NCBI GenBank assembly: GCA_963965975.1
Contig: OZ014413.1
Location: forward strand, 746,501-810,500
Length of the DNA stretch: 64,000 nucleotides
Source: Xestospongia bergquistia
Lineage: Eukaryota > Porifera > Demospongiae > Haplosclerida > Petrosiidae
Reading direction: 5' to 3'
The notes below the pieces were generated by a model. The model ran no database searches. It worked only from the letters and a program-made list of their open reading frames with translations, and had not been told where the DNA came from. How positions within the stretch are numbered: position 1 is the stretch's first letter; every line of letters begins with the position of its first letter. Made by a program: the position numbers and the translations under genes. Positions 4,087 through 63,092 of the stretch are shown piece after piece.

Positions 4087-5724
4087 TTAACGTCGATCTG
4101 CTCCATGATTTAATAAAACTTGAACAACATCAGAATAACCTCTATTATTTGCATAATGAAGTGGAGTCATACCATTCTATATAATACAACACAATAGCTT
4201 GAAGTGTAAAATGCAGTTAATCTTACATCATCTACAGCATTAGGATTAGCATTATTTTTTAGTAGTATCTTAACTACTTCAATACGTCCTGGTGTGTAAG
4301 GACTATCAACAGCATGATGGATAAAGGTCTTCCCATCCTAGTGTGTCATATCAACAATAGTTAACAGTTATCTTACTTACTTCCTCTATAACATTGATAT
4401 CTGCTCCATACTTTATCATCGTTCTAACAACATCAGAATGACCTTTAACAACTGCACAATTAATAGCACTCCATCCATCCTGTGTAGAAATCAATTTAGT
4501 ATTAACTCAAGGTAATTTTAAATGTCACCACGTTTGTAGTGAAAAATTGTATACAATAGTGATATGATATAGTCATAAGCATACTTTATCTTTAACATTA
4601 ACACTAAATCCATTCTTCACAAGAACCTCTACAAGATTAGCATATCCACATTGAGCTGCTACATGAAGTATCGTCCATCCTTCCTAAATATAAACACACA
4701 TCACTAAGTGTTCTCCCTTAAACAAGATAGTTACCTCATCCATAATGCTAAGATCAACACCATATTTTATTAATTTTTGTATAACATCATTCTGACCTTC
4801 CTTAACAGCATGTCTCAAGGCATCCCAACCCTCCTGAAATTATATATATGATATTAATTAATAATATCAAATGTAGACATATAGTACTTTGTATACTTCT
4901 TTCTCTCTGATCAATTTCTCTATTTCTTCTTGTTTCTCTACTAATACTTTATCAGTAGCTATAGAACATAACCATATATGGTATGTACTACTAACAGTAC
5001 TATAGCTCACCTTCTTTCTCTCTGGTCAATTTCTCAATCTCTTCTTGTTTCTCTACTAATGCTTTATCAGTAGCTATAGAACATAACCATATATGGTATG
5101 TACTGCTAACATCACTATAGCTTACCTTCTTTCTCTTTGGTTAACTTCTCTATCTCTAAGGTCTTTAGTTTATTCATTCTGTCCAATAGTTCCAGTTTTT
5201 CTATTTACATTAGGTACATAGTAATATCTCTATTAATGTACATGTACCTGATAAAGTGTTAGTTGATGATTGATCTTGTTGTTGTTCACTATCCATACTA
5301 GTAGTAACTAAAGTATATAACAATTGTAGTCATAAAAATATTGGAACAGAACTAGCTACTAATATAAATGCTTTACTAAATATTAATAATAAATTAATTT
5401 TAGTTCTCTATTTATATACATACATTTATAAAGTAACTTTCTTAATTATTGTTACACAAATTGAAATTATAATTGATACATTATGTATGTATATACTAGA
5501 CATAGTACTAGAAATAAGTATATATTAGTATTGTTTTATGTTTTAATTGTATATAATTAATAACAATTAATAATGGAATAACAAAATTAATCATGTATGG
5601 TTGTTTGGTTGCTTATTAAAAGAGTGAGTTTTGTTGTATATAGTAATATACTAGCTTACAAACGATATATGTAATAAGACATCATATTAATCTTAAATTG
5701 TCAGTCCTATAATTGTTTTGGAAC

Positions 5725-5765
<41 letters not shown>

Positions 5766-5771
5766 CATACA

Positions 5772-5859
<88 letters not shown>

Positions 5860-5869
5860 TGTATGTATG

Positions 5870-5926
<57 letters not shown>

Positions 5927-8900
5927 GCCTTTGTGTGCCCATTTCCTTCGTTTTATTTTATTGTTGTATGCAATAATTGAAAGCAACAAATGAAATTAAA
6001 CTGTATCCTGTAATAGTTGATGCCTATAGCAGCTAATGGACTTCATTAATCCTAAGTGCAAGTGCTATGAAAATGGGCATTTCTTACTATATAGCTTGCT
6101 TTTCTACCTATATACATATATCTAACATTCTATAGCTAGTCTTCCATAGATACTGCTGCTAAATATTCAATATTTATAGCTCTAGTCAGTGTTTCATTGT
6201 AAAGTCAGTGTCATGTAATAAAACAATTGTAGGATGACTTTTTCAATTAAAAACTTGTTAATGAGAGTTTAATGTGAAATACCCCTACCATTTTGAATTA
6301 GGTGTGACTCATCAAAACTTTTCATTTCTTCTATTTCTGACTGTTCCTTTGGTAATAAGGGGTGGGTCTCTATTTGCTATATCAATAAATAACGTATTGA
6401 TCAGTAAAAGTAAAGTAATTAAACCTACTTTATCAGTCACAACTTCAGAAGATATCTCAGGTTCTCTAATAGTGTCCTCAATCTGTGACACTATAGGTAT
6501 CCCTTACATTGAGCAAATACAAATGACAAATGATTGATTTATTAATTAACTGGATTATGATTTATGCAAAAGAGACAAGGTAATATTAATTATTGTTTTG
6601 TGTTATTGAAAGTGTAATAATTAAACCTAAATCTAATTAACTAACAAACTTATATTGAAACTAAAGTTTGTCACACTACAGATGTTTTGCTCTTACAAAT
6701 TATGGAATCACAGGTCAATTAGCTATTAAGCAAAGATATCAAAGAAATATCATTTTTACATGGTAGAAGCTAGTTGTATATATCAGTGTGATTTATCTCA
6801 TACTTGCAAGTGGCATTTGAATGTAACTACTGAAGTATGCTTTAAATTATACCTATGATTCTATACAGATTCAATGCATAGTAATAGTAGCCTCTTCAAA
6901 TAATCTTAATATGGTTTTTAGTTCCAGTTTAAATGCTGAGTACATTGTACAATGTCATATACTCACTTGGTATCTTTGATAGTTTTTCATCATATTCATA
7001 TTCTAAATCACTCTTTCTTTTTCTATGTGATCTAGAAATGTCAATGTCATGTGCTGGCTTCTTAACTATATGCTGAATGGTATCAGTGAGTTTGTGCTTT
7101 CCCTTTGGTAGTGAGGGATCGGTCTCTATCTCCTGTATCAATAAATAATATGTTGATCAGTAAATGTAAAGTAATTAAACCTACTTCATGAGTTGAAACT
7201 TCAGAAGATATCTCAGGTTCTCTAATAGTGTCTCCAATCTGTGGTAATACAGGTATCCCTACATTAAGTAAATGCAAGTGACAAATGATTGAATCATTAA
7301 TAAACTTGATTATGCAGGATATGGTAATATTAATTAATGTTTTGTGTTATTTAAAGTATAATAAATTAAACCACACATTCTAATTAACTATTACAATAAT
7401 GGTCAATAGATAGATTATATACTATTTATATCTTTTGGTAATAAGACAAGAAATAAAATAACATTAAACTGAGCACACTGGCTACAAATAGCAATGAAAA
7501 AAGATATTAACTAGTGTTTTAATTACAAGCACTATAATAATGAATGAGTAATGTTATTTTAAGCTTTGGTTTTAATCATTCTAATCAGCACAAAGACAAT
7601 AAACATAGCAAGTCATCTTGATCAAAAATTTGACCACACTTAAATAGTAAGTCTTAGTATATAATTGGTCATTTTAGGGGCTTTTCTGGTAATTATTCAA
7701 AATTTAGTCAAACGATTTGTGTATTATAAAACAATTAGACTAAATGTACCTTTTGTTTCTTTAAGGGGAGATTCTAACTCAAAGATTTTTTGAACTTTCA
7801 AATCCAGCTCTCTTTTATAGTCACTGAGTGAGTCTGTGAACTGACTTTTTATTTCCTGAAAAAGTATGATTCACACAAATATTGGAACAAATCTACTTCA
7901 TCTCTTTGTTTTGTCTTTTCAATTTCCAGCAATGAAGTATCTTCTTTTTCCAGCTGCATCAACTTGATAAGTAGAGATGTTTCTGCATTTTCAGAATAAG
8001 CTCTAACAAATACAGAAAGATAGTTTTGAGTTTTTGAAGTAATGTTATAGCTACTTACAGCACAGTAACTAGATCAGCATTGACTTCATAACAATTTTTT
8101 GACTTTTTCCACTCAATAAATGTAAAAAGCTGAGATTTAGGGGAACTTTCATTTAATACAACTGTTGGAAGACTAAATATTAATTTAATAGATCCAATGT
8201 TGTAATCTTCAAAATGTAAGATGGTCCCATCTTCTAAGCCTGACAATTTAGCAAGGTTACGTTGAACTGCTTTTATTTCATTTCCAGATATGGAGAGATC
8301 TGTAGGGACTTTAAAAAGTAGATTGGTACATTGAAATTGACACTGTGAACTACATGGTATCTCAAAAATAGAGCGCTTTAGATAAGGTGTGAGATGATCT
8401 TCTTCATACGTCTTCAAATATGTCTTTTCATCTTCATTTCCTAAAATCTCAACTACAACTTTAAATGACTCATAATTGAACCATGTGCAGTGCTTAGATA
8501 ACTCATCAAGCACATCAGCAATACTGTCATCTTTATGAAAATTAGGTTGATATGAATTGTCATAACTACGAACAAAAGGCTTAACTAACTTTGGATCAAC
8601 CTCACGTTTTCTAAAAGATTTTATAAGTTGGACAACAAAGATTGCATAGGCTTTACGTACATCTTGATTCTCATCCATTAACTGGTTTTTCACTGCTTCC
8701 TTCTCACTGTCTGTTAAATCTTTCCAGTTACGGTAACGACCTTTTGCTTTCTCTGGAGCAAGATGTAATTCCCTTGTCTGTGGCTCTGAAACAGTTTTCT
8801 TTGAAAGATATCTTAAAATGGATTCAACAACAACAGTCTCTTCCATCTTCAAAAAGGCATTTAAAAGTTCCACAGAGGTAGCAGCACTACCATTTTTTGC

Positions 8901-9566
8901 TTTCCATTCCCATAGCACAGCAACCGTTCTTTCTACATTATCTCGTTTATCTTGTATAATACCCTCCATTGTTTTACTTGATAAGTTCAGACAACGACCA
9001 ACTTCGGTGTAGTCAATCAATTGTAAGTGCTGAGAGACCTGTATCAAGAGACTGTCATCACATTCTTTATCCAATTCTTCATATTGTAGATCATATGGAC
9101 TCAAAAAATTTAATAAATCTGAAATTAGTAAAATGACATTTAATGATAAGCTGCATGACAAAATTACAAAACATCTCATAGAGATAAATATTTTTATATA
9201 TCATAATCACATACCTGCTAATGTAGATAGTTTTACATCAAGTTCTCTACCAACAATTGCCACTGGTCCACCAATGTCTTCAAGGATTTGTGTAAGTTTT
9301 TTACAATGCTTCAGTATATCCTCAGCACTCTTCATCAACCCCAACCCTACTTTAAAATCATTAGTTATGTCAGAAAAACATTTGTTATACTGATCATGAC
9401 TACATCGTACAGTGGCTCTCATAACAGGATCGCTTATCAAACCAGCTGTAACTGCTCTCTCAGCAAATGTGTTTATAGCTACTTCTAGTGCTGAACTAAG
9501 GTCAGCGTAACAGGAAGTAAAAATATAGACAACAACTCTTCTGTAAGTTTTTAAGAAGTCAGCCAT
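4087..9566 (-). CDS. Modular gene 1: module A, death domain, coiled coil, ankyrin repeats
   Basis: Predicted intracellular adaptor or receptor. Exons in transcription order: 9215-9566 (module A, starts [10 protein letters not shown], ends with the family signature [13 protein letters not shown]), 8059-9118, 7897-8002, 7750-7855, 7185-7258, 6967-7132, 6429-6502, 6289-6376, 5251-5306, 5126-5201, 5011-5073, 4897-4958, then ankyrin exons 4735-4833, 4585-4683, 4381-4479, 4227-4337 and 4087-4176. The 1060-bp exon holds a death domain ([20 protein letters not shown]), helical module C ([17 protein letters not shown]) and alpha/beta module D. Two 21-residue coil cassettes precede the repeats. Three ankyrin exons are exactly 99 bp, one repeat each. 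The last ends GADRR then TAA, apparently after a 4-bp insertion. The linker exon pair at 7185-7258 and 6967-7132 is repeated at 6429-6502 and 6289-6376. Ligand and function are unknown. Confidence 0.65.
5726..5919. repeat. Compound microsatellite (TA)n-(CATA)n-(TA)n-(TATG)n-(TA)n
   Basis: About 194 bp of pure TA, then CATA repeats at 5760-5800, TA at 5801-5831, TATG repeats at 5832-5873 and TA to 5919. The two tetranucleotide blocks are reverse complements, so the whole can fold on itself. It lies in an intron of gene 1 (between 5306 and 6289). Open frames of Ile-Tyr and His-Thr-Tyr across it are artefacts. Confidence 0.95.
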
Positions 9567-12387: not shown

Positions 12388-15300
12388 TTAAAATAGATGA
12401 TCACTAACAACTTGAAAACGAACTATCTTATTTATTTCTTGCACTTTTAGCAACTCTTGTTTCCCATCATTAGTGATGTTGTGACTGCTGATTAGCGATA
12501 GTTTCTTTAATGTCGTATTAATGGATAACATTTCACACATATGAGGTATATCTTCATCTGTGATGGTGCTATCATACCAAATCTTTAATTTCTTAAGTGT
12601 AGTGTTGTAATGTAGTGCTTTCATTATCTTCTCTAGACTGTTAGGAGGGAGAGGAGAGGATTTCAGACATAGATATTCTATTGACTTGGTATTATTGAGT
12701 ACATCACATAGCTTGGAGACACAATGATCATCAAGAGGAATGTGCCCAATATGAAGCTTCCCTACCGGACATTCATGATTGATCTTAGTTAGCAGTGCTT
12801 GTAAGCTCTCACGAGATGCTCTGTTTAACCAAATCTCCCACTGTTCCTGTTTATTTGAAATTATTTCACCCATTACTTCCTCACATTCTTTTACAGTAGG
12901 TGAGGTCAGTATAACATTCAGCATAACACTTGCTGAGTCTTCTATTCAATGATAAAAAAGTCAGTATAATAAAATGTATATTATGGTTCAAAATCTATTA
13001 TATAATATGTATAATATATAAATACATAAGTACACCAGAGTTACGTGTGTATATTCATGTATTAATGCTGCATGATTGAACATCACTAGTACAGTATTGT
13101 GGTAACATGCTAATGTGCTATATTTTGGTAATATGTACTTAAACAGTATTTGCAAACGAAATATTCAAATTGTTAGTGTTTGCTGGTGCTATATCCACTC
13201 TAGGATTTATGACTTTTTAATCTGTGTGTCTAGGATATGCCACCATTATTATTCCTAGTAATGATAAATGTGTACATTATCAAGAATCCTCTCTCCCTCT
13301 CTTTTACACATACAGATGGGTAACATTTTAAATGATAAAGGATAAATATAAGACTATAAAATATTCTTAAGGCATAAAAGTTTCAAAAGTACCTAAATGA
13401 ATGAGGTTGAACACATATATATGCACACACACACCAAACCTTCCTAATCTCTTTTTGTTTCTCTACTAATACTTTATCATTAGCTATAGAACATAACCAT
13501 ATATGGTATGTACTACTAACATTACTATAGCTTACCTTCTTTCTCTCTGGTCAACCTCTCAATCTCTTCTTTTTTCTCTACTAATACTTTATCATTAGCT
13601 ATAGAACATAACCATATATGGTATGTACTACTAACATTACTATAGCTTACCTTCTTTCTCTCTGCTCAACTTATCAATCTCTTCTTGTTTCTCTACTAAT
13701 ACTTTATCAGTAGCTATAGAACATAACCATATATGGTATGCTTGTACTACTAACAGTACTATAGTTTACCTTCTTTCTCTCTGGTTAACTTCTCTATCTC
13801 TAATGTCTTTGCCTTACTCATTTTGTCCAATAGTTTTATTTTCTCTATTTACATTAGGTACATAGTAATATCTCAATTAATGTACATGTACCTGATAAAG
13901 TGTCAGTTGATGATTGATCTTGTGGTTGTTCACTATCCATATTGATAGTAACTAAAGTATACAAAAATATTTGCTAGCTTCATCTAATAAAACAATTGTA
14001 GGATGACATTTTCAGTTGAAAACTTGTTTAATTAGAGTTTAATATGAAACATCCTTACCATTTTGAATTGAGTGTGACTCATCAAAGCTTTTGAGTTCTA
14101 TTTCTGACTGTTCCTTTGGTAATAAGGGCTGGGTATCCATTTGCTATATCAAAAAATAACATGTTGATCAGTAAATGTAAAGTAATTAAACCTACTTTAT
14201 CAGTCACAACTTCAGAAGATATCATAGGTTCTCTAATAGTGTCTCCAATCTGTGACACTATAGGTATCCCTACATTGAGCAAATAACTAATTTATTAATT
14301 AACTGGATTATGATTTATGCAAAAGAGACAAGGTAATATTAATTATTGTTTTGCACTATTTAAAGTGTAATAATTAGACCACAAATTCTAATTAACTAAT
14401 AATTGAAACTAAAGTTTGTTGTACTACACTGTGCTGTTTACGAAATCACTGGCCAATTAGCTATTAAGCAAAGATATGAAAGAAATATCAATTTTACATG
14501 GTATACAGGAAAAACACAAGGTTAAAACTACCCGCAATGGTTGTATCAACTACAATACAAATTGGTTATATTAACCTACATGTAATTGAAGTGACACTCC
14601 TGGGTAACTTTAACTAAAATGGGTTAATGTAACTAAGTTTGTTGAAGCTACCATGTTGACTGACTGTTACTATAACTAGATTAGGTAGTTTAACACCAAA
14701 ATAACAATGTAATCTAGTTATTAAAAGAAATTGGTAAAAGGGAGAAAAAACAATATTAGTTTACATAACATAGTGTTTTAGATAAATATAAGTCAAACCA
14801 TCTGTTAGTTTATGACCATGATAAACATTATAATGAAATAAATCAGATATTAATGACTGATGTGAAGAAACAGAAATGACATAGGAATAATAATGCACAT
14901 AAAATAAAATTTTGTCATTTAAATTGTTGTCCTCGTTACCGTACCAGAATCTCATCAAGTTGATGTAAGCCCAATATTGAGTTACCACAAAGCCAAAAAC
15001 TGGTCTAACTTAATATGTGAAAAGCTAACTAGAAGCCAAAATGTACTTTTTGTAGTTTATTGTCCAATAACTGAAATTATGAGGGAGAGATAGATACTGT
15101 TTCAACCTAACTAACTAGGTTAATTAAGTTGAAATAGTATATACTTGTAGCTTCAATTTAAGCCATGATTTGACTACTATAGCAAAGTGAGAGTAAAACC
15201 AATGTGGTTGTAGATGTAACTAGTTCGCATCATGCTTATTGAGTTACACTAGTATTGGCCTTGTAGCAACTTTGAATTGGGCTTAGATCATATTGATGTA

Positions 15301-17683
15301 ACTGTAGTCATGAAGACCTTAGTTAAAATGACAACATGCTTTTTTCAGTGTGGCTATCAAAATAAAGTATATTACATGATGAAACCAAAAAAAGAGGCAT
15401 GTCACCACCAATGATTTACATTAACAATATTAGTTATAACAACCTATTTTGTTAGTTATGATAACCACAACATATGTTATAATCAAACCTACTAAGTGTT
15501 ACAGTAACCACAGTGCATGAAGTTAAAGTAACAGCAATTGTTACATCAACTACTTATGTCAGATGTTACTTTAACTATAGGTGTGGGTTATAATCACCAA
15601 TAGTTGCTTTAACTATAATTTTCATTGGGTTATTTTAACCAAAGACATGGGTTACCTGAGTTGCAGGTGTTTTGACCCAAAAGTTTGGGTACTTTCTACC
15701 CATCACTTTTTACTGTGTAATTTCTTATTAAATGCCAAGTATATTATACATCATAATGCAGTTATTTACTTGGTATCTTCGATGGTTTTTCATCATCTTC
15801 CAATTCTAAATCACTCTTTCTTTTTGGATGTGATCTAAAAATTTCATTGTTGCATGCTGACATCTTAACTTCCATATTGCTAGATACTACAGCACATACA
15901 AGTGAGGAAATATTACATTGCACATATGAAATTATACTAATCTTCATGTATATTATATATATTATTTCTGTACTTCCTGAACATACCTTCCTCTTCTTTT
16001 GGTGTTGATATTTCCTCTCCTTCTCTCTCATATTTAGCAGGCCCAATTTCTTTACTTCTAGTATCTGATATTGTTAATTCAATACTATTAGTTGTATTCA
16101 AAGATACATTCAACTCACCTTTAACATAATCTACATCTATTTCCTTCCCTTGTTTACTGGAGTTCAGCCTCTTTCTAAGTAGAGCAACTTCCTTTTCAAG
16201 CTCTCTCACCTCCTATATATCAACATGCACACGCATATATCTAGCATTAATCATCTCTTACCTTGTCTCTTGTACGTTCATCCCAAACAGTACAATAGCC
16301 AATGCTTAATTTAATTAATCCAATTCCCCTCAGTAATTCAAGATTTTTCTCAGCTTTCATCAGTAGAATATCCATTACATGTCGTGGAGCATAGCAGGTT
16401 ATAATGATTGAGTTGCCTTTGAAGTATCTAACTTGGACCCTTTTAGCCATATCTTCAAAAGCCTTTTTTAACAAGACTTTAATGTCATTAAGCGAGTACT
16501 CTTCTCCTTTCCAATCTAGAACAAACTCAATAGTCTCACATTTAAGAGTAAGGCATGGATTTGTCATGATGTTTTTATCTTTACACACACTTAGTTTGAC
16601 CTCCTCACAGAATGTTTTGACTTCATTTTTGTAGGTTGTGATGTGAGCTGTGGCTTCTTTGATTTTGTAATGATTGACAATTACTTCCAAACAGGCAACA
16701 TTGATGATGGTACACTTTTCTCGCACTATCTCCATAACATTATCAAATGATTCAGCTGTTGATAATTGAGGTTTTAACTCTGGAAAGCATGTTCGAAGAA
16801 ATGTTTTAAACTCTTCTAATTTAGGCATGATAGCAGATTCAATAAGAGGTGCTACAGTAAAAATTAAAACTCCAAATTTTGCTCTTATGTGATCAAAACA
16901 TTCCTGATAAGTAGGTTGAAGATGGACCTCTGTTATGCAAGAAATTTCAATAAACAGACATACCATAAACACTTACCATACTCTTTGAGTATATCATTTC
17001 CTATACGTACTGTGTATTTAGATTGTAATAAGACAGTACCAAATGCTCTTAACATGTTTGGATCCTCATATACTCTATCAGACAGTGCTCTTAATGGATT
17101 ATCAGTTAGCAATCCTCCTGAGCTCTGTATCTCATCAAATGTCTCCTTAGAGATAACTCCCTCTGTATATAACATCTGTGTCACCTCCATAGGAAGAACA
17201 AGTTTTGAGAGTCTTGCAGAATATTTCTGGAGTACTTTACTGGAGTGGTCTTTTTGCTTCTGAACTGCTGTTATAATTAAATTTTGTAATAAAAATGTTT
17301 TCATTGCAACTCTTACTTTTTGTTACTTATTCTATGTAATTCTTACTTCACTTACCAGTTAAATTTGACAGTTTTTCTTCAATTTCTTTCCCAGTATCTC
17401 TCACTGGTCCACCAATGTCAAGAAGAATATCAATAAAACATTTATATCGTTGTTGTATCTCTAAAATACTACTACATGACTCCAAACCAGCTTTTAACTG
17501 TTCAAATATACTAGGAAACTCCATATTTAGTGAGGATATAAAGTGTGCTGCATATGCTTTGCCAGTAAAATCCTCCATGTTTCCCTTCAGTACATTGCGA
17601 ATTCTGTCATAGTGTAGGACGAAAACATCAATAACATCTCGTCTGTAGCTTGTAATATCGACGGTTTCAGCGTTGGAGGCCAT
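12388..17683 (-). CDS. Modular gene 2: module A, CARD-like, modules C and D, coiled coil, LRR
   Basis: Predicted intracellular receptor or adaptor. Exons: 17356-17683 (module A, MASNAETVDITSYRR...DIGGPV), 16977-17267 (CARD-like, LSKLVLPMEVTQMLYTEGVI), 16262-16929 (modules C and D, ending TVWDERTRDK), coil/linker exons 16119-16212, 15987-16064, 15770-15886, 14196-14269, 14059-14143, 13892-13951, 13770-13844, three 21-residue coil cassettes (13651-13713, 13536-13598 and about 13440-13483) and an LRR exon 12388-12941. The LRR exon has about three NLR-type repeats (INTTLKKLSLISSHNITNDG). Exon sizes and phases match genes 3, 4 and 7. The splice from the last cassette to the LRR exon is unclear because phases do not obviously agree. 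A 1.2-kb transposon fills the intron between 15770 and 14269. A palindromic promoter motif lies at 17731-17740. Confidence 0.65.
14504..15717. mobile_element. Non-autonomous CACAG-ended TIR element, copy 1
   Basis: About 1214 bp. The left end reads ACAGGAAAAACACAAGG and the right end is the complement of CACAGTAAAAAGTGATGG. The interior has no long open frame and is dense in GGTTA and TAACC motifs. A closely related full copy lies at 30172-31535. The same insertion, internally deleted to about 167 bp, sits at the matching intron position in gene 4 (29353-29519). The insertion therefore predates that gene duplication. The target duplication is not clear. Confidence 0.7.
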
Positions 17684-20446: not shown

Positions 20447-23400
20447 TCAAGTAGTATGTGTTATTTTCATTATCCTAACATGAAGAGTATCATCATCACT
20501 AACATACTGAGTATTACGCAATTTATCAAACTCCAAAAACTTGTGAGATAAAAAGTTTGGATATCCGTATCCTTGAGACTGTCTTCTTAACAAGAACCTA
20601 GTCAGTCCCGTTACAGGAGCCCCATACTCTTCTTTTGGGTCAGTCTTCTCGTTAAATTCTACAAGTCGTTCAGCATGGTTCTTGTTCTCCCTCCAGTTAA
20701 TAATTTGAACAAGAATATCACCACGAAATGGAAAGGTTAGTTTGTCATCATTTTCACCTTTCATGAGATGAACAAAAATAGAGATGTACTTGTTTTTGCA
20801 TTTACTGCGGCCTTTGGGATAGACCAGAAGTGACAATTTGTAACCATTCTCATGGGAATAAAATGGCTCACTGGTGCATTCTTTATTAGATTGTTGACGC
20901 TTTGAGAAGTTATTGATTTTAAAGTCAAGAACAGGCAAGGGATCACTTGATGTTGAAGGTACTATAGATGGTGATGAATGAACGATTACTTGTTTAATAC
21001 AAATTATAATGCTGTCATCTTCTAGAAAGTCAGATGTATTGGTCTGAAGTTTATCTTGACTAATAAAGAGAGCTTTACCTTCACCTACTCTACTTGCTAG
21101 ACCAGCTTTAACTGGAATACCATTAATAACTCGACTACAAGCTTGTACATTAGAGGAATCATCAAACACTATATTCTGTTCATAGTGATCATGATCATCT
21201 CTACGATTAATGAGCTGAACTTTTACTTCTCCTCGAAATGGCCATGACAAGAGGTCATCATTTTTACCTGCCATTAGATGGATATAGAGACTCAGATGTG
21301 TTCCTTGTCCCTCATCTTCACCATTAGCTGCTATACGAACATACATTTGATAGCCATTAGAATGAGAGAGAAAACTAGGACTATACCACTCTTCACCACT
21401 ATTCTTGTAACTGTTAAAATTAGACATAACAGTTTGAACTGGTGGACTTTCTAATACTTTCCGATTGTAACGTAGTAATGGTACATTAGCATCTGTTTAT
21501 GTAATTAAAAAATAACATGGTTTATGGTTTATGGTAAATTGAGTACAAACAAATATCATTTAATGTAAAATATCCTTACCATTACTGTGAGTACTTTGTG
21601 ACTGATCAAATGTTTTGAGTTCTTCTATTTCTAAATCACACTTTTTCTCTGAATGTTCCATTGGTAGTGAAGGATGGGTTTCCATCTGTTATATCAAAAA
21701 ATAAAATGCTAATCAGTAAATGTGATGTAATTAAACCTACTTCATGAGTCACAACTTCAGAAGATATTGTAAGTTCTCTAACAGTGTCTCCAATCTGTGA
21801 TATTATAGGTATCCCTACATTGAGCAAATGCAAATGACAAATGATTGAATTATTAATAACTTGATTATGATTTATAAAAAAAGAGATATGGTGATATTAA
21901 TTAAAGTTTTGTGATATTTAAAATGTAATAATTAAACCATAAATTTTAATTAACTAGTGTAATAGATGGATCATGTACTATTTATATCTTTTGCAATAAG
22001 ATATAATATATAATTAGATCATAATTTATATTGTATTTACCAGACAAAGACTCTTCAGTTGATGGTAGATCATCTTTGTCCATACTACTAGATACTATAG
22101 CACATACAAGATAGGAAATATACATATATTGAATTATACTAATCTTCCTGTAAATTATATACATTATTTCTGTGCTCCTTCAATATACCTTCCTCTTCTT
22201 TTGGTGTAGACTTTAACTTCTCTTCCTTTCCTTCTCTCTCATATTTAGCAGGACCAATTTCTTTATGACTAGTATCTGACATTGTTAATTCGATGTTATT
22301 ACTTACATCTTATATTTAAAGATACATTGAACTCACCTTTAACACAATCTACATCTTTTTCCTTCCCTTGTTTACAGGAGTTAAGCTTCTTCTTGAGTAG
22401 AGCAACTTCCATTTCAAGCTCTCTCACCTCCTATATATCAATGTACATACACATATATCTAGCATTATTCATCTCTTACCTTATCTCTTGTACGTTCATC
22501 CCAAACAGTACAATAGCCAATACTTAATTTAATTAATCCAATTCCTCTCAGTTGATCAAGATTCTTCTTAGCTTTCATCATTAGAATGTCCATTACATGT
22601 TGTGGAGCATAGCAGGTTATAATGATAGAGTTGCCTTCTTTGAAGTATCTAACTTGGACTCTTTTAGCCATATCTTCAAAAGCCTTTTTTAACAAGACTT
22701 CTATGTCATTAAGTGAGTACTCTTCTCCTTCCCACTCTAGAACAAACTCAATAGTCTCACATTTAAGAATAATGGATGGATTTGTTGTGATGTTTTCATT
22801 TTTACACACACTTAGTTTGACCTCCTCACAGAATGCTTCAACTTCATTTTTGTAGGTTGTAATGTGAGTAATGGCTTCTTCGATTTTGTAATGATTAATA
22901 ATAACTTTCAAGCAGGCAACATTGATCATGGTACACTTTTCTCGAACTATCTTCATAACATCGTCAAATGATTCAGCTGTTGATAATTGAGGTTTTAGCT
23001 CTGGAAAGCATGTTTGAAGAAATGTTTTAAACTCTTTCAATCTAGGCATGACGGCAGATTCAATAAGAGGTGTTATAGTAACAATTAGTATTCCAAATTT
23101 TGCTCTTATGTCATCAAAACATTCGTGATAAGTAGGTTGAAGATGGAACTCTGTTATATAAGAGATTACAATAAACAGACATGCTATAAACACTTACCAT
23201 ACTCTCTGAGTATATCTTGTCCTACACGTACAGTGTCTTTTGATTGTAATAAAACAGTACCAAATTCTCTTAATTGGTTAGGATCTTCAGTTACTGAATT
23301 GGACAGTGCTCTCAATGGACCTTCAGTTAACAAACCTCCTGAGTTCTTGACTTCATTAAATGTCTCATTGGAGATGATTTCCTCTGTATGCAATGTCTGA

Positions 23401-23801
23401 ACTATCTTCACAGGAAGAACAAGTTTTGAAAGCCTTGGAGAGTATTTCTGGAGTATTTCACTGGAGTGATTACCAGTTAATTTTACTAATTCTTCTTTAA
23501 TTTTTCCCCCAGTATCTCCCACTGGTCCACCAATGTCAAGAAGAATATCAATAAAACATTGATATCGTTGTTGTATCTCTAAAATACTCCTACACGACTC
23601 AAAACCAGTTTTGAACTGATCAAATATACTAGCAAATTCCATAGTTTGTGAAGATATAAAGTGTGCTGAAAATGCTCTGCTAGCAAAATCCTCCACGTCT
23701 CCCTTCAGTAAAGACCGAATTCTGCTATAGTGTGAGACGAAAACATCAACAACAGCTCGTCTGTAGCTTGTAATATCGACGGTTTCAGCGTTGGAAGCCA
23801 T
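20447..23801 (-). CDS. Modular gene 3: module A, CARD-like, modules C and D, linker, two MATH domains
   Basis: Exons: 23198-23801 (module A and CARD-like domain fused), 22480-23150 (modules C and D), 22337-22430, 22189-22275, 22041-22094, 21741-21814, 21580-21685 and 20447-21492. The last exon encodes two tandem MATH (TRAF-like) domains, each with W-Y/F-S-P/H and H-L-M-x-G-x-x-D-D motifs (SPSFLSHSNGYQMYVRI; LMAGKNDDLLSWPFRGEVKV; LMKGENDDKLTFPFRGDILV). MATH domains usually bind short peptides and mediate oligomerisation. The gene lacks the intron between module A and the CARD-like exon present in genes 2, 4 and 7, and has no 21-residue coil cassettes. All exon joints I could check agree in phase. 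Predicted cytoplasmic, with no signal peptide. Start chosen as MASNAE by homology to gene 2; an upstream in-frame Met would read through the promoter motif. Confidence 0.7.
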
Positions 23802-24697: not shown

Positions 24698-24698
24698 A

Positions 24699-46176: not shown

Positions 46177-49100
46177 TTAGTGTATTATTTCTACTCTTGT
46201 ATCTTTGGAAAGTTGCTCTTCTCCAGATTCAGTGATATTGGGACATTCCTTCAGAATTAACCGTTCTAATGTAGTATTAACAGCTAACATATCAGAGATG
46301 TGATGGAGAGTTTTGTCTGTGATGGAGTCATCGTTATCCAATGTTAATGTCTTAATTGAAGTATTGGTAGATAAGGCTTTCATTATCATCTCCAGACCAT
46401 TATGTGGGTGAGGACAAGAGACAAGACGTAGGTAGTTTATTCTATTCTTATTAGTGAGTACATGAGATAATTCAGAGACACAGTCAATATCAAGAGGAGA
46501 GTTCCAAATATCCAGTTTTTTCACTGGACATTTGTTTATGTTACAAAGCACAATTTGCAGACTTTCAGGAGATACTGAGTCAAGTATAATCATCCAATGT
46601 TCTCTTGAATGTTTCTGCTTTAATTGTCTCATCACTTCTTCACATCCCTCCGCAGTAGGTGATATGAGTTCAACAGTATAGCAATCCCAAGTAATCCCTA
46701 TTAGAGATAGTATATGCATGCATAAATATAGTGCACAGAGACATAATATACAATGAGAAATGACTCCAAGCAACAAAAGTACATGCTATAATTTTAATTT
46801 CATTAAACACTGGAACATTACATTGGGTATATGTTGCTTATTACTCAAACATGACAGTCAATATTTATATATATATTCTAAACACATGCAATATCCATCT
46901 TAGGTTCTCTATTAACTGCATATTTCTATCAATTTTGTCTCTTAGTTTTTTCTCTAGTACCACAATCTCTTTTTATTTGTCTTTATAGAGCATGACCATA
47001 CATGGTATGTACTACTAACAGTACTATAGCTCACCTCTGGTCAACTTCTCTATTTCTTCTTGTTTCTCTACTAATACTTTATCAATAGCTATAGAACATA
47101 ACCATATATGGTATGTACTACTAACAGTACTATAGCTCACCTTCTTTCTCTCTGGTCAACTTCTTAATCTCTTCTTGTTTCTCTGCTAATACTTTATCAA
47201 TAGCTATAGAACATAACCATATATGGTATGTACTACTAACAGTACTATAGCTCACCTTCTTTCTCTCTGGTCAACTTCTCAATCTCTTCTTGTTTCTCTA
47301 CTAATACTTTATCAGTAACTATAGAACATAACCATATATGGTATGTACTACTAACAGTACAATACATAATGAGAAATTATTCCAAGCAACAAAAGTACAT
47401 GCTACAATTTTAATTTCATTAAACGTTGCAACATTAGATTGAGTATATTTGGCTTATTACTCAATCTAGAGACAATTAAAAGAATTAAAAAATTAATGTA
47501 TAATGTTTTAAGTGGATGTAATTGGTTTTCTTTTCCACACACTTAAACAAATTCGTACAGTCATGAGTTTAAATTGTTTAATTTTAGAGCTGGGTGCATG
47601 GAAATATTCAAGTTACAGAATGGATTGCAATGTCAGCACATATAGTGCTGTTTTTTTACCTTTATGATCATCATCTTTACTTAGATGTGTCTCTTCCTCT
47701 TCACTTTGTATAATATCTGAACTACTTGTTGATGTATTCAGTTTAACAGTTGCTATCTCATCAAGTCTTTGATTTAACTCTGGAGTCAATGATGTTATTT
47801 TCTCCTGTAGTATCTCAATCTCATCTTGTTTCTCTACTAATACTTTATCAGTAACTATAGAACATAACCATATATGGTATGTACTACTAACAGCACTATA
47901 GCTTACCTTCTTTCTCTCTGGTCAACTTCTCAATCTCTTCTTGTTTCTCTACTAATACTTTATCAGTAGCTATAGAACATAACCATATATGGTATGTACT
48001 ACTAACAGCACTGTAGCTTACCTTCTTTCTCTCTGGTCAACTTCCCAATCTCTTCTTGTTTCTCTACTAATACTTTATCAGTGGCTATAGAACATAACCA
48101 TATATGGTATGTACTACTAACAGTACTATAGCTTACCTTCTTTCTCTCTTGTCAACTTTTCAATCTCTTCTTGTTTCTCTACTAATATTTTATCAGTAGC
48201 TGTAGAGCATAACCATATATGGTATGTACTACAAACAGTACTATAGCTTACCTTCTTTCTCTCTTGTCAACTTCTCAATCTCTTCTTGTTTCTCTACTAA
48301 TACTTTATCAGTAGCTATAGAACATAACCATATATGGTATGTACTACTAACAGTACTATAGCTTACCTTCTTTCTCTCTTGTCAACTTCTCAATCTCTTC
48401 TTGTTTCGAATTCTCTACTAATACTTTATCAGTAGCTATAGAACATAACCATATATGGTATGTACTACTAACAGTACTATAGCTTACCTTCTTTCTCTCT
48501 GGTTAACTTCTCTATCTCTAATGTCTTTGCCTTACTCATTTTCTCCAATAGTTTCAGTTTCTCTATTTACATTAGGTACATAGTTATATTTCAATTAATG
48601 TACATGTACCTGATAAAGTGTCAATTGATGTTTGGTCTTGTTGTTCACTGTACATATTAGTAGTAACTAAAGTATATAACAACTGTAGTCACAAAAATAT
48701 TGGAACAGAATTAACTATTAATATAAATTCTTCACTAAATAGTAATAAATTAATTTTAGTTCTCTATTTATATACATACATTTATATTGTAACTTTCTTA
48801 ATTATTAATATACAAATTGAAAGTTAATCGATACATTATGTACATATATACTGACACAATACAAGAAATAAGTATATATTAGTATTGTTTTATGTTTTAA
48901 CTGTATATATCAATAACAATGAATAATGGAATAACAAAATTAATTATGTATGGTTGTTTGATTGCTTATTAAAAGAGTGATTTTGTTGTATATAGTAATA
49001 TATTACCTTACAAACACTATATGTAATAAGACATCATATTAATCTTAAATTGAGATCATATTAAATGTTAAAATTGGTTAAACTCTCTTGAATGTACTAA

Positions 49101-51374
49101 ATTAAGTCAACTTATCCACATCAACAATCAAGTTATACATATTGTTGTCACAAGCTATATAGAGTATACCCAAACTTCATATTTATATTGAATTTAATTT
49201 CATTTTATTCTGTATTTACAATGTTGGAAGGTGTTGCTTGACATTACTGAATTTTGACTATGATTTCAGTAATGAAATGAAACAAATGAAATTAAACTAA
49301 CAGTTAATGCAGCAGCTAAGTTATTAATTTGTGCTTTTATCACTATTGAGCATTGAATAATGTTATTTAAGCTTTGGTTTTATTCATTCTAATCAACACA
49401 GAAACAATAAACATAGTAAATGATTTGATCAAAAGCTTGACCACACTGAAAGAGTATAAGTCTTAGTACACAATTGGTCATTATTGGCAATTACTCAAAA
49501 GTCAAATGATTTGTGTAATACAATACAATTAGACTATATATGCATTATGCACCTCTTCTTTCCTTAAAGGTAGATTCTGACTCAAAGATCTTTTGATCTT
49601 TCAAATCCAGCTGTCTTTTATAATCACTAAGTGAGTCTGTCAGATGACTTTTGACCTCCTGTAAAAAACAAGATTCACATGAATATTGGAACAAATTTAC
49701 CTCATCCCTTTGTTTTGTATTTTCACTTTCCAGCAAGGAAGTAGCCTCTTTAAGAAAAACCTTTTCCTGCATCAACTTGATAAGTATAGATGTTTCTGCA
49801 TTGTCAGAATATGATCTAACAAACATTGAAAGATAGATTTGAAGTTGAAGTAACGTTATAGCTACTTACAGCACAGTAGCTAGATCAGCATTAATTTCAT
49901 AACAATTTTTTGACTTATTCCATTCAATAAATGCAAAAAGCTGAGATTTAGGGGAACTTTCATTTAATATAACTGTTGGAAGGCTAAATACTAGCTCAAT
50001 AGATCCAATGTTGTAGTCTTCAAAGTGTAAAATGGATCCATCTTTTAAGCCCAACAATTTAGCAAGGTTACGCTGAACTGCTTTCACTTCATTTCCAGTT
50101 ATGCAGAGATCTGTAGGGACTTGAAAAAGGAGATTGGTACGTTGAGATTGACTATGCACATCACATGGTATCTCAAAAATAGAGAGTTTAAGATATGGTA
50201 TAAGATTATCTTCTTCATATGTCTTCAAATATGTTTTTTCATCTTCATTTCCTAAAATATCAACTACAACTTTAAATGACTCATAATTGAACCATGTGCA
50301 GTGCTTAGATAACTCATCAAGCACGTCAGCAATACTGTCACCTTTATCAAAGTCAGGTGGATGTTGATTACCATCTGTAATACCATAGCTACGAATAAGA
50401 GGCTTAACTAACCTTGGCTCAACCTGACGTTTTATAAATGATTGTATAAGTTGGACAACAAAAATTGCATATGCTTTACGTACATAATGATTCTCATCTA
50501 TTAACTGGTTTCTCACTGCTTCCTTCTCACTCTCTGTTAATTTGTCCCAATTTGGATATCGATCTTTTGCTTTTTCTGGAGCAAGATGGAGTGTCCTTGT
50601 CAATGGCTCTGATTTAGTTTTCCTTGAAAGATATCCCAAAATAGATTCAGCAATAAGTTTATCTTCCATTTTCAAAAAGGCATTTAAAAGTTCCACAGAG
50701 GTAGCAGCACTACCATTTTTTGCTTTCCATTCCCATAGCATGGCAACCTTTCTTTCTACATCATCAATACTCTCCAATGTTTTGCTTGGTAAGTTCAGAC
50801 AATGACTAACTTTGGTGTGATCAATCAATTGTAAGTGTTGAGAGACCTGTATTAAGAGACTGTCATCACATTCTTTATCCAATTCTTCATATTGTAGATC
50901 GTATGGACACAAAAAATTTGACAAATCTGAAATTAGTAAAATGACATTTAATGATAGGCTGGATGACAAAATTACAAAACATCTTATAGAGATGAATATT
51001 TATATATATCATAATCACATACCAGCTAATGTAGATAGCTTTGCATCAAGTTCTCTACCAACAATTGCCACTGGTCCACCAATGTCTTCAAGGATTTGTG
51101 TAAGTTTTCGACAATGGTTCGGTATATCCTCAACACTCTTCATCAACTCCAATCCTATTATCAAGTCATTAGTTATGTCAGAAAAACATTTGCTATATTG
51201 ATCATGACTACATCTTACAGCGGCTCTCATAACAGGAAAACTTATCAAACCAGCTGTAAGTGCCTTCTCCGCAAATTCGTTTTTAGCTTCTTCTAGTACC
51301 GATTTAAGGTAAACGTATTGGGATATAAAAACATAGACAACAGCTCTTTTGTAAGTTTCTAAGCAGCCGGCCAT
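46177..51374 (-). CDS. Modular gene 6: module A, death domain, modules C and D, expanded coiled coil, LRR
   Basis: Exons: 51023-51374 (module A, MAGCLETYKRA), 49870-50926 (death domain [20 protein letters not shown], modules C and D), 49701-49815, 49553-49658, 48610-48666, 48491-48567, coil cassettes 48367-48435, 48252-48314, 48137-48199, 48022-48084 and 47907-47969, a long coil exon 47660-47854, cassettes 47256-47318, 47143-47205 and 47035-47088, and the LRR exon 46177-46697. The LRR exon has NLR-type repeats (LSTNTSIKTLTLDNDDSITD; VNTTLERLILKECPNITESG). The N-terminal half is a close paralogue of gene 1, whereas the C-terminus resembles gene 2. It has the most coil cassettes in the family, eight in all. 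Phases agree from cassette to LRR exon (1 to 1). An octamer-like ATGCAAAT lies upstream at 51446-51453. Probably cytoplasmic. Confidence 0.7.
46745..47470. repeat. Local duplication flanking the coil cassettes
   Basis: A stretch at about 46745-46860 (AAGCAACAAAAGTACATGCT) recurs at about 47365-47470. The segment containing three cassettes was therefore duplicated as a block together with non-coding flank, adding to the single-cassette expansion. Confidence 0.7.
47035..48567 (-). repeat. 115-bp exon-intron cassette array of gene 6
   Basis: Five consecutive cassettes at 47907-48435 repeat with a period of exactly 115 bp: a 63-bp exon plus a 52-bp intron starting GTAAGCTATAGTACTGTTAG and ending TTCTATAG. 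Three more lie at 47035-47318. Each exon encodes a version of [20 protein letters not shown] plus one residue, with phase 1 at both ends. The exon at 48367-48435 carries an extra in-frame GAATTC (69 bp). Introns are nearly as similar to each other as exons, implying recent duplication or gene conversion. Confidence 0.92.
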
Positions 51375-59074: not shown

Positions 59075-62000
59075 CTAATATTCTGGATCAATAGTTGTGC
59101 ATAAATTTAAGTCAAGTGCTAGCTGATGGTTTACTTCTTCAGGTGGTTTTTCTCCAAATCCTTGATAGAGAATTTTACCATAACTTGTGACTTTAAACAT
59201 TTGTGTACCACCAGCCTCAGCTTTGAAATCTTCTAGTTTATCTTCATCAATGAGCACATAATACCACTTTTTAACTAGCTTGACTAGCTCTGGTTTGTGA
59301 AACATACGATCTTTCCAGGTAATTGTACTTATATCATCTAGTCCACATTTCTGATCATCTGCATTGCCACAATTAAGTTGTCTAAAGTCACCCAATCTTG
59401 TTTTTTGTCCTGATGAGAGCACTGTATGGAAGTCTGTCACAACTTTCTTTCTTTCATCATTGTTAATAGCTTCAGTCACATAACATAACGCAGTAGCCTC
59501 TTGATCCATATCACAGGAAGTCCATACATTAAGTAAAATATTTCGACTTCTTGTATGATGGCCACAAGATGGTATCTTTAAGTTGTCTAATTGCTTGGCA
59601 CAATCTTTGATCCAGTTGCCAGAGTAACTACAATCAGTGTTTATGGTGAGTCTTTTCCCTAGAAATTGAGCCATATATATACCAAAGATTTCCTGAAAGG
59701 TGATGACACCATCTTTAAAACACCAGTTACCAGTGTTCTTCTCTCCATTACCAGTATAAAAGATGATAGCTAAGTAAGAGCAACACATTATTTGAGTAAT
59801 ACATGTATTATCCTCTCACCTTTTTCTTGATTCCTTTTTTTGCATTCTTGAAGAAAGACTCTTATCTGTTCTAAGTAATAAGATTTGGAGTGTTGAGCTC
59901 CAAGGTGATCTAAATAAGATATAATACGATCACAATTAGTTGCCTCATCATGTTTTTTCTTGATAAGGTCAATCTCGTCTGTTATCCATTGATCAGATCC
60001 TTTTAGATGAGAGGGTATTAACTTCTGTGCAACTGCATTGGTCTGAGATTCAGACACTTCTCCATACGAACCAATGATCAAAAGGTCATAAGAACCAGGA
60101 GGAAGATTTCGTGCATTTGACACTTTGTTATAGCCAGATTTAGATTCATCTTTCACCTTACCAATGTGTGTGCCTTCTCTATAGTCATCCTTCTCTAAAG
60201 TTAAGACAGATTAAAGAGTTGCATTACTAACAGTACTATTTAACTTACCTTCTTTCATTCTCTGTTGTAAAGTTAGAGTTGGTATTTTCTCCTGCAGCAT
60301 CTCAATCTCTGTTTGTTTCTCTACTAATACTTTATCAGTAGCTATAGAACATAACAATATATGGTATGTGTTACTAACAGTAGTATAGCTCACCTTCTTT
60401 CTCTCTGGTCAACTTCTCAATCTCTTCTTGTTTCTCTACTAATACTTTATCAGTAGCTATAGAACATAACCATATATGGTATGTACTACTAACAGTACTA
60501 TAGCTCACCTTCTTTATGTCTTGTTAACTTCTCAATCTCTTCTTGTTTCTCTACTAATACTTTATCAGTAGCTATAGAACATAACCATATATGGTATGTA
60601 CTACTAACAGTACTATAGCTTACCTTCTTTCTCTCTGGTCAACTTCTCAATCTCTTCTTGTTTCTCTACAAATACTTTATCAGTAACTATAGAACATAAC
60701 CATATATGGTATGTACTACTAATAGTACTATAGCTCACCTTCTTTCTCTCTGGTCAACTTCTCAATCTCCTCTTTTTTCTCTACTAATACTTTATCAGTA
60801 GCTATAGAGCATAACCATATATGGTATGTACTACTAATAGTACTATAGCTCACCTTCTTTCTCTCTGGTCAACTTCTCAATCTCCTCTTTTTTCTCTACT
60901 AATACTTTATCAGTAGCTATAGAACATAATCATATATGGTATGTACTACTAACAGTGCTATAGCTCACCTTCTTTCTCCATTTGTTGTAAATTTAGTCTT
61001 GTTATCTTTTCTTGAAGTGTCTCTATTTCTTTTTTGTTCTCTACTAAAATTTTATCCGTAACTATAGAACATAACCATATATGGTATGTACTACTAACAG
61101 TACTATAGCTTACCTTCTTTATGTCTTGTTAACTTCTCTATCTCTAAGGTTTTTGTCTTATTCATTCTGTCCAATAGTTTTAGCTTCTCTGTACACAGTT
61201 AATATATAATTGTATTATAACTTATATTGTATTTACCTGACAAAGACTCTCCAGTTAATGGCAGGCCACGTCTGTCCATACTACTAGATACTATAGTATG
61301 TAGAAGAGAGGAAATATTACATTACACATATAGAATTATACTAATCTTCATGTAAATTATATATATTATTTCAGTACTCCTTCATTGTACCTTCCACTTC
61401 TTTTAGTGTATTCTTTTCCTCTCCTCTCTCATGTTGAACAGATTCTAATTCTTTATCACTAGTAGCTATTACTTTTAATATGATATTATTACTTATATTC
61501 AAAGACACATTCAACTAACCTTTAACATCATCTACGTCTTTTCCCTCTTCTTGTTTACTAGAGTTCAACTTTTTTTTGAGTAGAGCAACTTCCTTTTTAA
61601 GTTCTCTTACCTCCTATATATGAATACACAGTTACACACATATTATATAGCATTACTCATCTCCTCTTACCTTATCTCTTGTACGTTCATCCCAAACAGT
61701 ACAATAGCTGATACTTAATTTCATTACTCCAATTCCCCTCAGTAGGTCAAGATTCTTCTCTGCTTTCATCAGTAGAATATCCATTATATGTCGTGGAGCA
61801 TAGCAGGTTATAATGATTGAGTTGCCTTTGAAGTATCTAACTTGGACCCTTTTAGCCATATCTTCAAAAGCCTTTTTTAACAAGACTTCGATGTCATTAA
61901 GTGAGTACTCTTCTCCTTTCCAATCTAGAACAAACTCAATAGTCTCACGTTTAAGTATAAGGGATGGATTTGTCATGATGTTTTCATTTTTACACACGTT

Positions 62001-63092
62001 GAGTTTGACCCCCTCACAGAATGTTTCGACTTCATTTTTGTAGGTTGTGATGTGAGCTGTGGCTTCTTCAATTTTGTAATGATTGACAATAACTTCCAAA
62101 CAGGCAACATTGATCATGGTACACTTTTCTTGCACTATCTCCATAACATCATCAAATGATTCAGCTGTTGATAATTGAGGTTTTAACTCTGGAAAGCATG
62201 TTCGAAGAAATGTTTTAAACTCTTTTAATTTAGGCATGATAGCAGATTCAATAAGAGGTTTTATAGTAAGAATCAGTAGTCCAAATTTTGCTCTTATGTG
62301 ATCAAAACCATACTGATAAGTAGGTTGAAGATGGACCTCTGTTATGCAAAAGATTACAATAAACAGACATGCTATAAACACTTACCATACTCTCTGAGTA
62401 TATCATTTCCTACACGCACTGTGTCTTTAGATTGTAATAAGACAGTACCAAACACTCTTAACATGTTTGGATCTTGAGATACTGTACCAGACAGTGCTTT
62501 TAATGGATTATCAGTTAGCAATCCTTCTGAGCTCAGTATCTCATCAAATGTCTCCTTAGAGATAACTCCCTCTGTACATAACATTTGTGTCACCTCAATA
62601 GGAAGAACAAGTTTTGATAGCCTTGCAGAGTATTTCTGGAGTACTTTACTGGACTGCTCTTGTTGCTTATGAGCTGCTGTTATAATTAAATTTTGTAATA
62701 AAAATGTATTCATTCCGACTCTTACTTTTTGTTAATATTTTTATGTAATTCTTACTTCACTTACCAGTTAAATATGATAGTTTTTCTTCCAATTCTTTCC
62801 CAACAACTTCCACTGGTCCACCAATGTCCAGAAGAATATCAATAAAACATTTATATCGTTGTTGTATCTCTGAAATACTCCTACACGTCTCAAAACCAGT
62901 TCTGAATTGTTCAAATATAGTAGCAAATTCCATATTTAGTGAGGCTATAAAGTGTGCTGCAAATGCTCTGCCAGCAAAATCCTCAATGTTTCCCTTCAGT
63001 ACATTGCAAATTTTGTCATAGTATGAAACAAAAACATCAACAACAGCTCGTCTGTAGCTTGTAATATCGACGGTTTCAGCGTTCGAGGCCAT
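59075..63092 (-). CDS. Modular gene 7: module A, CARD-like, modules C and D, coiled coil, caspase-like
   Basis: Exons: 62765-63092 (module A, MASNAETVDITSYRRAVV), 62386-62676 (CARD-like), 61671-62338 (modules C and D), 61521-61613, about 61392-61464, 61238-61290, 61114-61188, a long coil exon (about 60969-61060), five coil cassettes (60854-60916, 60739-60801, 60624-60686, 60509-60571, 60394-60456), a long coil exon 60249-60341, then 59820-60194 and 59075-59769. Exon sizes match gene 4 (328 against 319 bp for exon 1; 291, 668 and 375 bp identical). The caspase-like domain has the same double change, FYTGNGE and TDCSYSGNW. The intron before 60194 must be spliced, because read-through meets a stop at about 60211. 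Upstream lies the ATGCGCATGC motif. Predicted cytoplasmic. Confidence 0.7.
60394..60916 (-). repeat. 115-bp exon-intron cassette array of gene 7
   Basis: Five 63-bp coil exons at an exact 115-bp period (starts 60394, 60509, 60624, 60739, 60854), each with the 52-bp intron seen in gene 6. Phase 1 at both ends, 21 residues each. Gene 7 has five copies where the closely related genes 4 and 5 have one each. Confidence 0.92.

Follow-up and report, generated by a model that had tools for sequence, protein, structure and literature searches.

Introduction

In the sponge Amphimedon, 357 proteins combine Death-like domains, a TRADD-N domain and a variable C-terminus, and these C-termini include ankyrin, leucine-rich repeat (LRR), MATH and caspase domains (Kaur et al. 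2021, PMC8195603). Ectopic recombination has been proposed for the 90-bp exon arrays of Tetrahymena (PMC6564038), and gene conversion acts differently on the two domains of the zebrafish NLR-B30.2 genes (PMC4852459). Here we analyse a stretch of 64,000 nucleotides, positions 746501-810500 of contig C3 (hereafter the window), and compare it with the genome to which it belongs, of 146 Mb in 21 contigs, among them C3, C6, C8 and C12. The window contains seven minus-strand genes, G1-G7, in which three types of N-terminal module (A, B and C) are combined with five C-terminal cassettes (caspase-like, double MATH, LRR1, LRR2 and ankyrin), in most cases across an array of a 115-bp exon-intron unit. 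The main text of PMC8195603 contains no word starting with 'exon' or 'intron', so such an array and its exchange junctions are undescribed there.

Judging from the sequences, we consider it likely that these genes encode adaptors whose effector ends have been swapped by unequal crossing-over in the array, which would serve as a hinge. The genes probably belong to a large animal family of intracellular adaptors, here probably of a demosponge, to judge by the agreement with the published Amphimedon architectures. The class of architecture has already been published (PMC8195603), and the swapping mechanism through the array would be the new element; a literature search, in which the other candidate papers were judged by title and the start of the abstract, found no exon-intron minisatellite joining unlike effector cassettes. 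Such a mechanism would turn a catalogue of domain architectures into something testable, namely the sites at which receptor-like proteins in an early-branching animal exchange their effectors, and the hinge would explain why effector swaps leave the proteins intact.

Gene models of the locus

The gene models were obtained by exon chaining, with codon usage taken from 14 long frames, GT-AG splice sites and introns of 35-1500 bp, and one G6 intron sits at this upper limit. Each of the seven models has 8-16 exons and encodes 867-1064 amino acids (aa); the numbering G1-G7 reverses genes 7 to 1 of an earlier note on this DNA, whose description of seven minus-strand genes with combinatorial modules is confirmed by the splice models and the block comparison below. 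The splice model forbids stops, so the open frames of the models exist by construction. Independently of it, the long exons are open from stop to stop, and a repeated set of long minus-strand exons is visible in the stop-to-stop frames of the window. Many introns measure about 45-100 bp and some reach 1-1.5 kb; of the 78 in the models, 60 are phase 1, 16 phase 0 and two phase 2. The same note had called nearly all joints phase 1, which holds for six of the seven cassette joints but not for the ankyrin joint of G7 (phase 0). In what follows, the exon behind the death-fold exons is called the TRADD-N candidate.

Exchange of halves between genes

For the block comparison, eight genes (G1-G7 and G8, a gene starting at C3:857483) were divided into five blocks (N module, middle, array, cassette, 3' flank), and all pairs were compared at the DNA level with introns included. 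The N modules fall into type A (G1, G4, G5 and G6, 87-96% identical), type B (G2, G7 and G8, 81-87%) and type C (G3 alone). The cassettes form a caspase-like group (G1, G3 and G4, 89.6-92.5%) and an LRR2 group (G6 and G8, 90%), with LRR1, MATH and ankyrin each occurring singly. The two groupings cross. Near-identical N-termini carrying three different C-termini had been read from the letters for the four type A genes, and this similarity extends through the introns; likewise, the C-terminal type said to be common to G3 and G4 proved to be one cassette, present also in G1, on N types A and C.

All four pairings of types A and C with the caspase-like and LRR2 cassettes exist: A with caspase-like in G1 and G4, A with LRR2 in G6, C with caspase-like in G3, and C with LRR2 in a gene at C3:843k. 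No tree without exchange yields this four-gamete set, which, together with junctions in or beside the array, strongly supports the combinatorial, expanding locus that had been proposed. In the 843k gene (L038, partial), bases 1-1489 are 84.9% identical to G3 and bases 1480-3240, up to its end, are 93.1% identical to G6; the first regular array exon occupies 1447-1510, so the two parental stretches meet inside one array exon. Its N module is covered from the TRADD-N candidate exon onward, and the visible part of this exon shares 84% identity with its G3 counterpart and 40-43% with type A. G4 is also a mosaic, being G6-like upstream of the array, like all genes within it, and G3-like downstream.

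Between genes with different cassettes, homology ends 38-114 nt past the start of the last array exon in 17 of 17 pairs, three of which, aligned one unit off, end at 153 in G6. In the four pairs that share a cassette, it continues for 540-900 nt past the last array exon, the junction alignments being limited to 900 nt. On the upstream side, G3 joins the other genes at -20 from its own first array exon, within an array intron, in six of six pairs. Genes with the same cassette also share 0.4-1.5 kb of 3' flank, at 89-95% identity for the caspase-like and LRR2 cassettes, and the type A modules share their 5' flank. Outside the window, a gene at C3:475k joins an A-like N module (73-78% DNA identity) and an array to a MATH cassette 86% identical to that of G5, followed by a 3' flank that is 95-97% identical to that of G5 over about 0.4 kb, and a gene at 824k has a B-like middle, an A-like TRADD-N candidate (58%) and a caspase-like cassette; array-segment matches were omitted from the flank comparison behind these two cases. 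The sequences thus show that halves have been recombined between genes, cassettes carry their 3' flank with them, and the junctions of the readable mosaics lie in or beside the array.

Structure and homogenisation of the array

The array unit of 115 bp consists of a phase 1-1 exon of 63 nt, which encodes 21 aa or three heptads, and a 52-bp intron. Six of the seven window genes hold 1-7 regular units between their halves, and G5 has no array. A unit was defined by at most 14 mismatches in 63 to one G1 unit; near-copies (in G2 and in a gene at C3:833k) were counted apart from regular units, and some loci hold partial arrays. Tandem Repeats Finder detected the 115-bp repeat in five genes, once each in G1, G4, G6 and G7 and twice in G2, six times in all. 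Unit DNA is 87-96% identical among the seven array genes compared (six window genes and G8), and for G3 and G6 the array is the sole DNA similarity in the block comparison. Judged from sequence with no dedicated predictor, the array would form a coiled coil, with Leu6, Ile13 and Leu16 in register. Some nearby introns are longer, reaching 1.5 kb upstream of the array in G4 and G6 and measuring 0.6-1.2 kb between array and LRR2. The 52-bp consensus array intron contains a perfect palindrome, CCATATATGG, which we take to be of CArG-box form; the homology of G3 to other arrays starts nearby.

Genome-wide match counts given here are lower bounds. At 25 genome loci, 110 units were collected (1 to 19 regular units per locus), with no in-frame stop, an AG acceptor in 110 of 110 and a GT donor in 104 of 110. 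At least 38 array clusters exist, 27 in C3:0.21-1.1 Mb, seven elsewhere on C3, two on C12 and two on C6. A TRADD-N candidate exon lies at most 8 kb upstream on the same strand in 22 of these 38 clusters, three of them weak cases (at C3:844k the exon counted is a decayed type B relic, and in C12:6404k and C3:1037k the exon is 5-6 kb off); the 844k gene, however, also has a type C one. The remaining 16, typed in part, have no TRADD-N candidate exon in the match lists; among them, C3:942k has a partial one in its flank.

Among ten genes (45 pairs), mean DNA identity is 75% for the TRADD-N candidate exons, 91% for the array exons and 85% for the array introns. In 66 units from 18 genes, variation at intron sites (0.029) is close to that at exon sites (0.033), and unit identity is 94.3% between genes versus 95.5% within genes. 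The TRADD-N candidate exons of a C12 gene and a gene at C3:11.27 Mb are 95% alike and their array exons just 78%, so the array has a separate history. The ratio of nonsynonymous to synonymous substitution rates (dN/dS, point estimates) is 0.26-0.89 in all module pairs but one, which suggests that the modules are in use; the exception, 1.85 for the TRADD-N candidate exons of G4 and G6, is not meaningful at a dS of 0.018. Diversifying selection on the MATH exon, considered for its 86% identity against 95-97% in the flank, was rejected at a dN/dS of 0.36, and a converted flank is the more likely source of this contrast.

N-terminal modules

Death was found above the Pfam cut-off of 22.6 bits in exon 2 of G2 (26.3 bits, E = 8e-6), exon 2 of G7 (34.4 bits, 2.5e-8) and exon 1 of G3 (26.3 bits, 8e-6). 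The N-terminal death-fold half that had been suggested for all seven genes is borne out in these three but not in the type A genes, where CARD is sub-threshold or absent. NACHT, the nucleotide-binding domain of NLR receptors, was not among the Pfam matches of the exons scanned, a set without the coil and small middle exons.

The TRADD-N candidate exon has at least 152 genome matches, with 150 of 526 candidates scored, and 21 of the 152 were aligned with the G3 exon to give 22 copies. It is placed between the N-terminal Death-like domains and the variable C-terminus, in a lineage expansion. In TRADD-N domains of the NCOA6 clade, the turn that links strands 2 and 3 carries a conserved Ser preceded by a tiny residue. 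With strand positions read by eye, a Ser is invariant in 22 of 22 type A and C copies, preceded by Asn, Lys or His; the type B candidates of G2, G7 and G8 have Gly-Ser. Exon position, expansion and invariant Ser fit the TRADD-N of Kaur et al. (PMC8195603), and we use the name as a label for a candidate, of which an RRM/ACT-like fold would be expected.

Some further features of the N modules were observed. G5 (window 23460-23480) precisely lacks the first intron found in the remaining type A genes, its exons 1 and 2 being fused in frame, as if a complementary DNA copy had replaced the region. Between G6 and G7, at 10382-11214, lies a decayed type B N module with in-frame stops, and similar relics at C3:841k and 848k would likewise reflect birth and death of modules. 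Upstream of all four type A genes there is a scrap that we take to be helicase-like (63702-63956, 33595-33861, 24451-24718 and 18276-18710), the first copy of which has no Pfam match.

C-terminal cassettes

Pfam searches agree with the earlier reading of two MATH domains in G5 (1e-50) and ankyrin repeats in G7 (9e-41). For the LRR cassettes the reading stands in part: no Pfam model matches the LRR1 (G2) or LRR2 (G6) exons, but in the PDB the first LRR-named chain is LRRC34 (5e-6 for LRR1, 1.7e-10 for LRR2), with further matches to ribonuclease inhibitor, tropomodulin and NLRP chains. The top PDB row is named tubulin (3.5e-9 and 4e-11), perhaps a mislabelled chain of an LRRC34 complex. G2 and G6 had been assigned the same C-terminal type; DNA matches between LRR2 and LRR1 cover 28-37% at 74% identity, which points to a shared domain type but not to a recent common cassette. 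The LRR2 partners of G6 are the genes at C3:857k and C3:843k, outside the window.

The caspase-like label, given to three genes from the letters, found no support: searches of Pfam, NCBIfam and PDB with the exons of G1, G3 and G4, singly or as a profile, gave nothing credible. Where we presume that an active caspase would have HG (GHGE) and a Cys, the three window copies read GNGE and DCSYSG. Among 18 aligned members, from 37 matches (L078, L079 and 17 matches without a locus were excluded), seven have Asn at the first position and 11 have His. All 18 read DCSY, in which Ser stands where Cys would be expected. Since no tool supports the label and Asn and Ser replace the expected His and Cys, a role as protease effector is doubtful from these residues. 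The cassette brings its own array-derived, diverged terminal exon.

Related cassettes occur elsewhere in the genome. A second cluster of caspase-like exons at C8:1.49-1.62 Mb accounts for 20 of the at least 37 genome matches, with GHGE in seven of nine aligned members and the Ser of DCSY in nine of nine. A ZU5-like cassette lies 3' of an 8-unit array at C3:1017k (L039:2454-2969; Pfam ZU5, E = 0.004, sub-threshold) and, by eye, also behind the arrays at C3 305k and 1081k, as a further C-terminal type. At C12:5.10-5.25 Mb the MATH query matched repeatedly in a tandem series of open frames, many of which measure about 1000-1280 aa.

Passenger DNA and feature coordinates

CLN5-like exons lie on the plus strand at 44039-44506 and 56674-57141 (Pfam E = 1e-55 and 1e-53), between the receptor-like genes; these and the 3-beta-HSD-like exons on the minus strand are passengers of segmental duplication. 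A 611-bp inverted repeat of 100% identity (54144-54754 and 55135-55745) flanks the 3-beta-HSD-like exon at 54711-54941, of which a sister copy at 42.0-43.4k has no such arms. The repeat may be a very recent insertion, a transduplication or an assembly effect. The features of the seven genes are collected in Table 1.

Table 1 Window coordinates of gene models, arrays and TRADD-N candidate exons.
Feature	Position	Strand	Description	Basis
G1	59075..63092	-	N type A + array + caspase-like cassette; 15 exons, 1033 aa	splice model, block identities
G1 TRADD-N candidate exon	61671..62338	-	type A	alignment, invariant Ser
G1 array	60249..61061	-	five regular 63-nt exons + flanking variants	115-bp period
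G2	46177..51374	-	N type B (Death) + array + LRR1 cassette; 14 exons, 987 aa
G2 exon 2	49870..50926	-	Death + TRADD-N candidate (type B, IGS motif)	splice model, Pfam
G2 array	47035..48435	-	seven regular units, two blocks
G3	36808..40983	-	N type C (Death in exon 1) + one regular array unit + caspase-like cassette; 9 exons, 1064 aa
G3 TRADD-N candidate exon	39114..39820	-	type C	alignment
G3 array	37950..38156	-	one regular unit + cassette's own diverged terminal unit
G4	27192..32988	-	N type A + one regular array unit + caspase-like cassette; 11 exons, 1036 aa; mosaic
G4 TRADD-N candidate exon	31585..32252	-	type A	alignment
G4 array	28352..28561	-	one regular unit + cassette's diverged terminal unit; G6-like/G3-like switch here
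G5	20447..23801	-	N type A without intron 1, without array, two MATH domains; 8 exons, 911 aa
G5 TRADD-N candidate exon	22480..23150	-	type A	genome matches, alignment
G6	12388..17683	-	N type A + array + LRR2 cassette; 12 exons, 867 aa
G6 TRADD-N candidate exon	16262..16929	-	type A	alignment
G6 array	13536..13713	-	two regular units
G7	3869..9566	-	N type B (Death) + array + ankyrin repeats; 16 exons, 925 aa; joint phase 0
G7 exon 2	8059..9118	-	Death + TRADD-N candidate (type B, IGS motif)	splice model, Pfam
G7 array	4897..5073	-	two regular units

Proposed mechanism and alternative explanations

The process that we propose is unequal (ectopic) crossing-over between the arrays of different genes. 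In the gene models the unit is demonstrably neutral for reading frame and splice phase, and the array would be a safe place for swapping because its unit, 63 nt long and flanked by phase-1 introns, codes for 21 residues or three heptads. A crossover between any unit and any other would keep frame, splice phase and coil register, the last being the probable reason why any unit could be joined to any other, and an unequal one would also shift coil length in steps of 21 residues. In the protein, the N modules would recruit it into death-fold/TRADD-N assemblies, the coil would oligomerise or space, and the cassette (LRR, ankyrin, MATH, caspase-like, elsewhere ZU5-like) would bind or act, setting the partner or the action. 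By domain content and the argument of PMC8195603, such genes may form a repertoire that serves immunity or regulated cell death. A bolder version, tentative and in our judgement somewhat improbable, is that the array is an evolved recombination hinge, kept neutral for frame, phase and heptad and homogenised across chromosomes for free recombination of modules, with coil length varying between genes and perhaps also between individuals or by alternative splicing.

Several observations weigh against the proposal of adaptors with ends swapped in the array. On the domain side, CARD in exon 2 of G4 is sub-threshold in Pfam (17.2 versus 23.9 bits, E = 0.005), the fused type A exon of G5 has no Death or CARD match there, and type A exon 1, represented by G4, has no Pfam domain match above chance. 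Pfam NCOA6_TRADD-N (PF13820) touches three of the 22 TRADD-N candidate copies, none above cut-off (best E 0.037), an unrelated FcoT-like thioesterase model touches four of the 22 (best E 1e-4), and a PDB profile search with the candidate gave nothing below E 0.4. A whole-genome search for the NCOA6_TRADD-N family gave no matches, with equally silent controls; this search mode is uninformative here, as MATH also gave none although hmmscan finds MATH in the window. On the junction side, homology that stops at the array is partly expected where the array is the only shared element, so the weight rests on the mosaics with contiguous flanking homology. Upstream of the array, parts of the middle are common to A and B genes, and some N exchanges may have taken place there; the combination of TRADD-N candidate and middle in the 824k gene is such a mixture. 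G5 has no array, though a relative of its MATH cassette follows one at C3:475k. Homogenisation is incomplete, with the C3:11.27 Mb array averaging 74-79% to others and the 434k intron 67-75%. A DNA hairpin in the array unit as a recombination motif was rejected, its folding z of about -1 being not clearly above shuffles.

We have weighed three other accounts of the locus. Ordinary exon shuffling in other introns, with the array as a passenger linker homogenised later by gene conversion, would be permitted at many introns by the phase-1 symmetric exons found throughout (60 of 78 introns), and the other middle exons common to A and B genes as well as the array-free MATH cassette of G5 are in its favour. 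We nevertheless regard it as unlikely, since in the 843k gene and G4 the parental stretches abut inside the array with zero unmatched DNA between them, G3 joins other genes 20 nt before its own first array exon, and the longer introns nearby would have been larger targets. Slightly less probable still is a tandem cluster with old fusions, in which loss and gene conversion of whole cassettes produced the mixed pattern with no crossing-over. Segmental duplication is plain in the window (the CLN5-like and 3-beta-HSD-like passengers, and blocks of up to 3.4 kb at 92%), and gene conversion shaped the comparable zebrafish NLR family (PMC4852459); the shared 3' flanks of 0.4-1.5 kb and the shared 5' flank of type A look more like crossover products, although long conversion tracts could also give shared flanks.

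It is very improbable, by contrast, that the C-terminal exons form genes of their own, each with a promoter, and that the fusions are modelling errors. The fusions do rest on a splice model that avoids stops by design, and introns of 0.6-1.2 kb separate array and LRR2 cassette, but six of seven joints are phase 1 and fusions of like kinds have been published for Amphimedon (PMC8195603). Phase-compatible models and these similar architectures suggest that the C-terminal exons are part of the same genes as the N modules. The array-derived terminal exon inside the caspase-like cassette also speaks against separate genes.

Comparison with known systems

TRADD, with its death-fold and TRADD-N adaptor structure, and TRAF2, with a coiled coil and MATH, act in one pathway. 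TRADD-N binds MATH (PMC8195603), and unlike TRADD plus TRAF2, the TRADD-N candidate and MATH are predicted to be in one polypeptide in G5. The closest relative is the NCOA6-clade TRADD-N expansion of Amphimedon, which has one to three Death-like domains, TRADD-N in the same position and a variable C-terminus; the expansion is large in both, with at least 152 type A exon matches here (150 of 526 candidates scored) against 357 proteins there, and the difference is that TRADD-N here stays below cut-off (PMC8195603).

The Tetrahymena LRR genes likewise have tandem exons of equal length (90 bp) in one phase and in variable copy number (PMC6564038); their arrays are the LRR domain itself, in phase 2, whereas here the array is a predicted coiled-coil linker in phase 1 with both flanks swapped. 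In the brown-algal ROCO LRR genes (PMC11378527), candidate immune receptors with one repeat per 72-bp exon, one phase and exon shuffling, the portion of the source drawn on describes a fixed LRR-ROC-COR architecture with no exchange of effector domains through the array. Zebrafish NLR-B30.2 genes, in the corresponding portion of PMC4852459, have one type of C-terminal domain and no exon-intron minisatellite at the joint. Known tandem exon arrays diversify LRR genes, whereas the array described here seems to be a joint for swapping whole effector cassettes.

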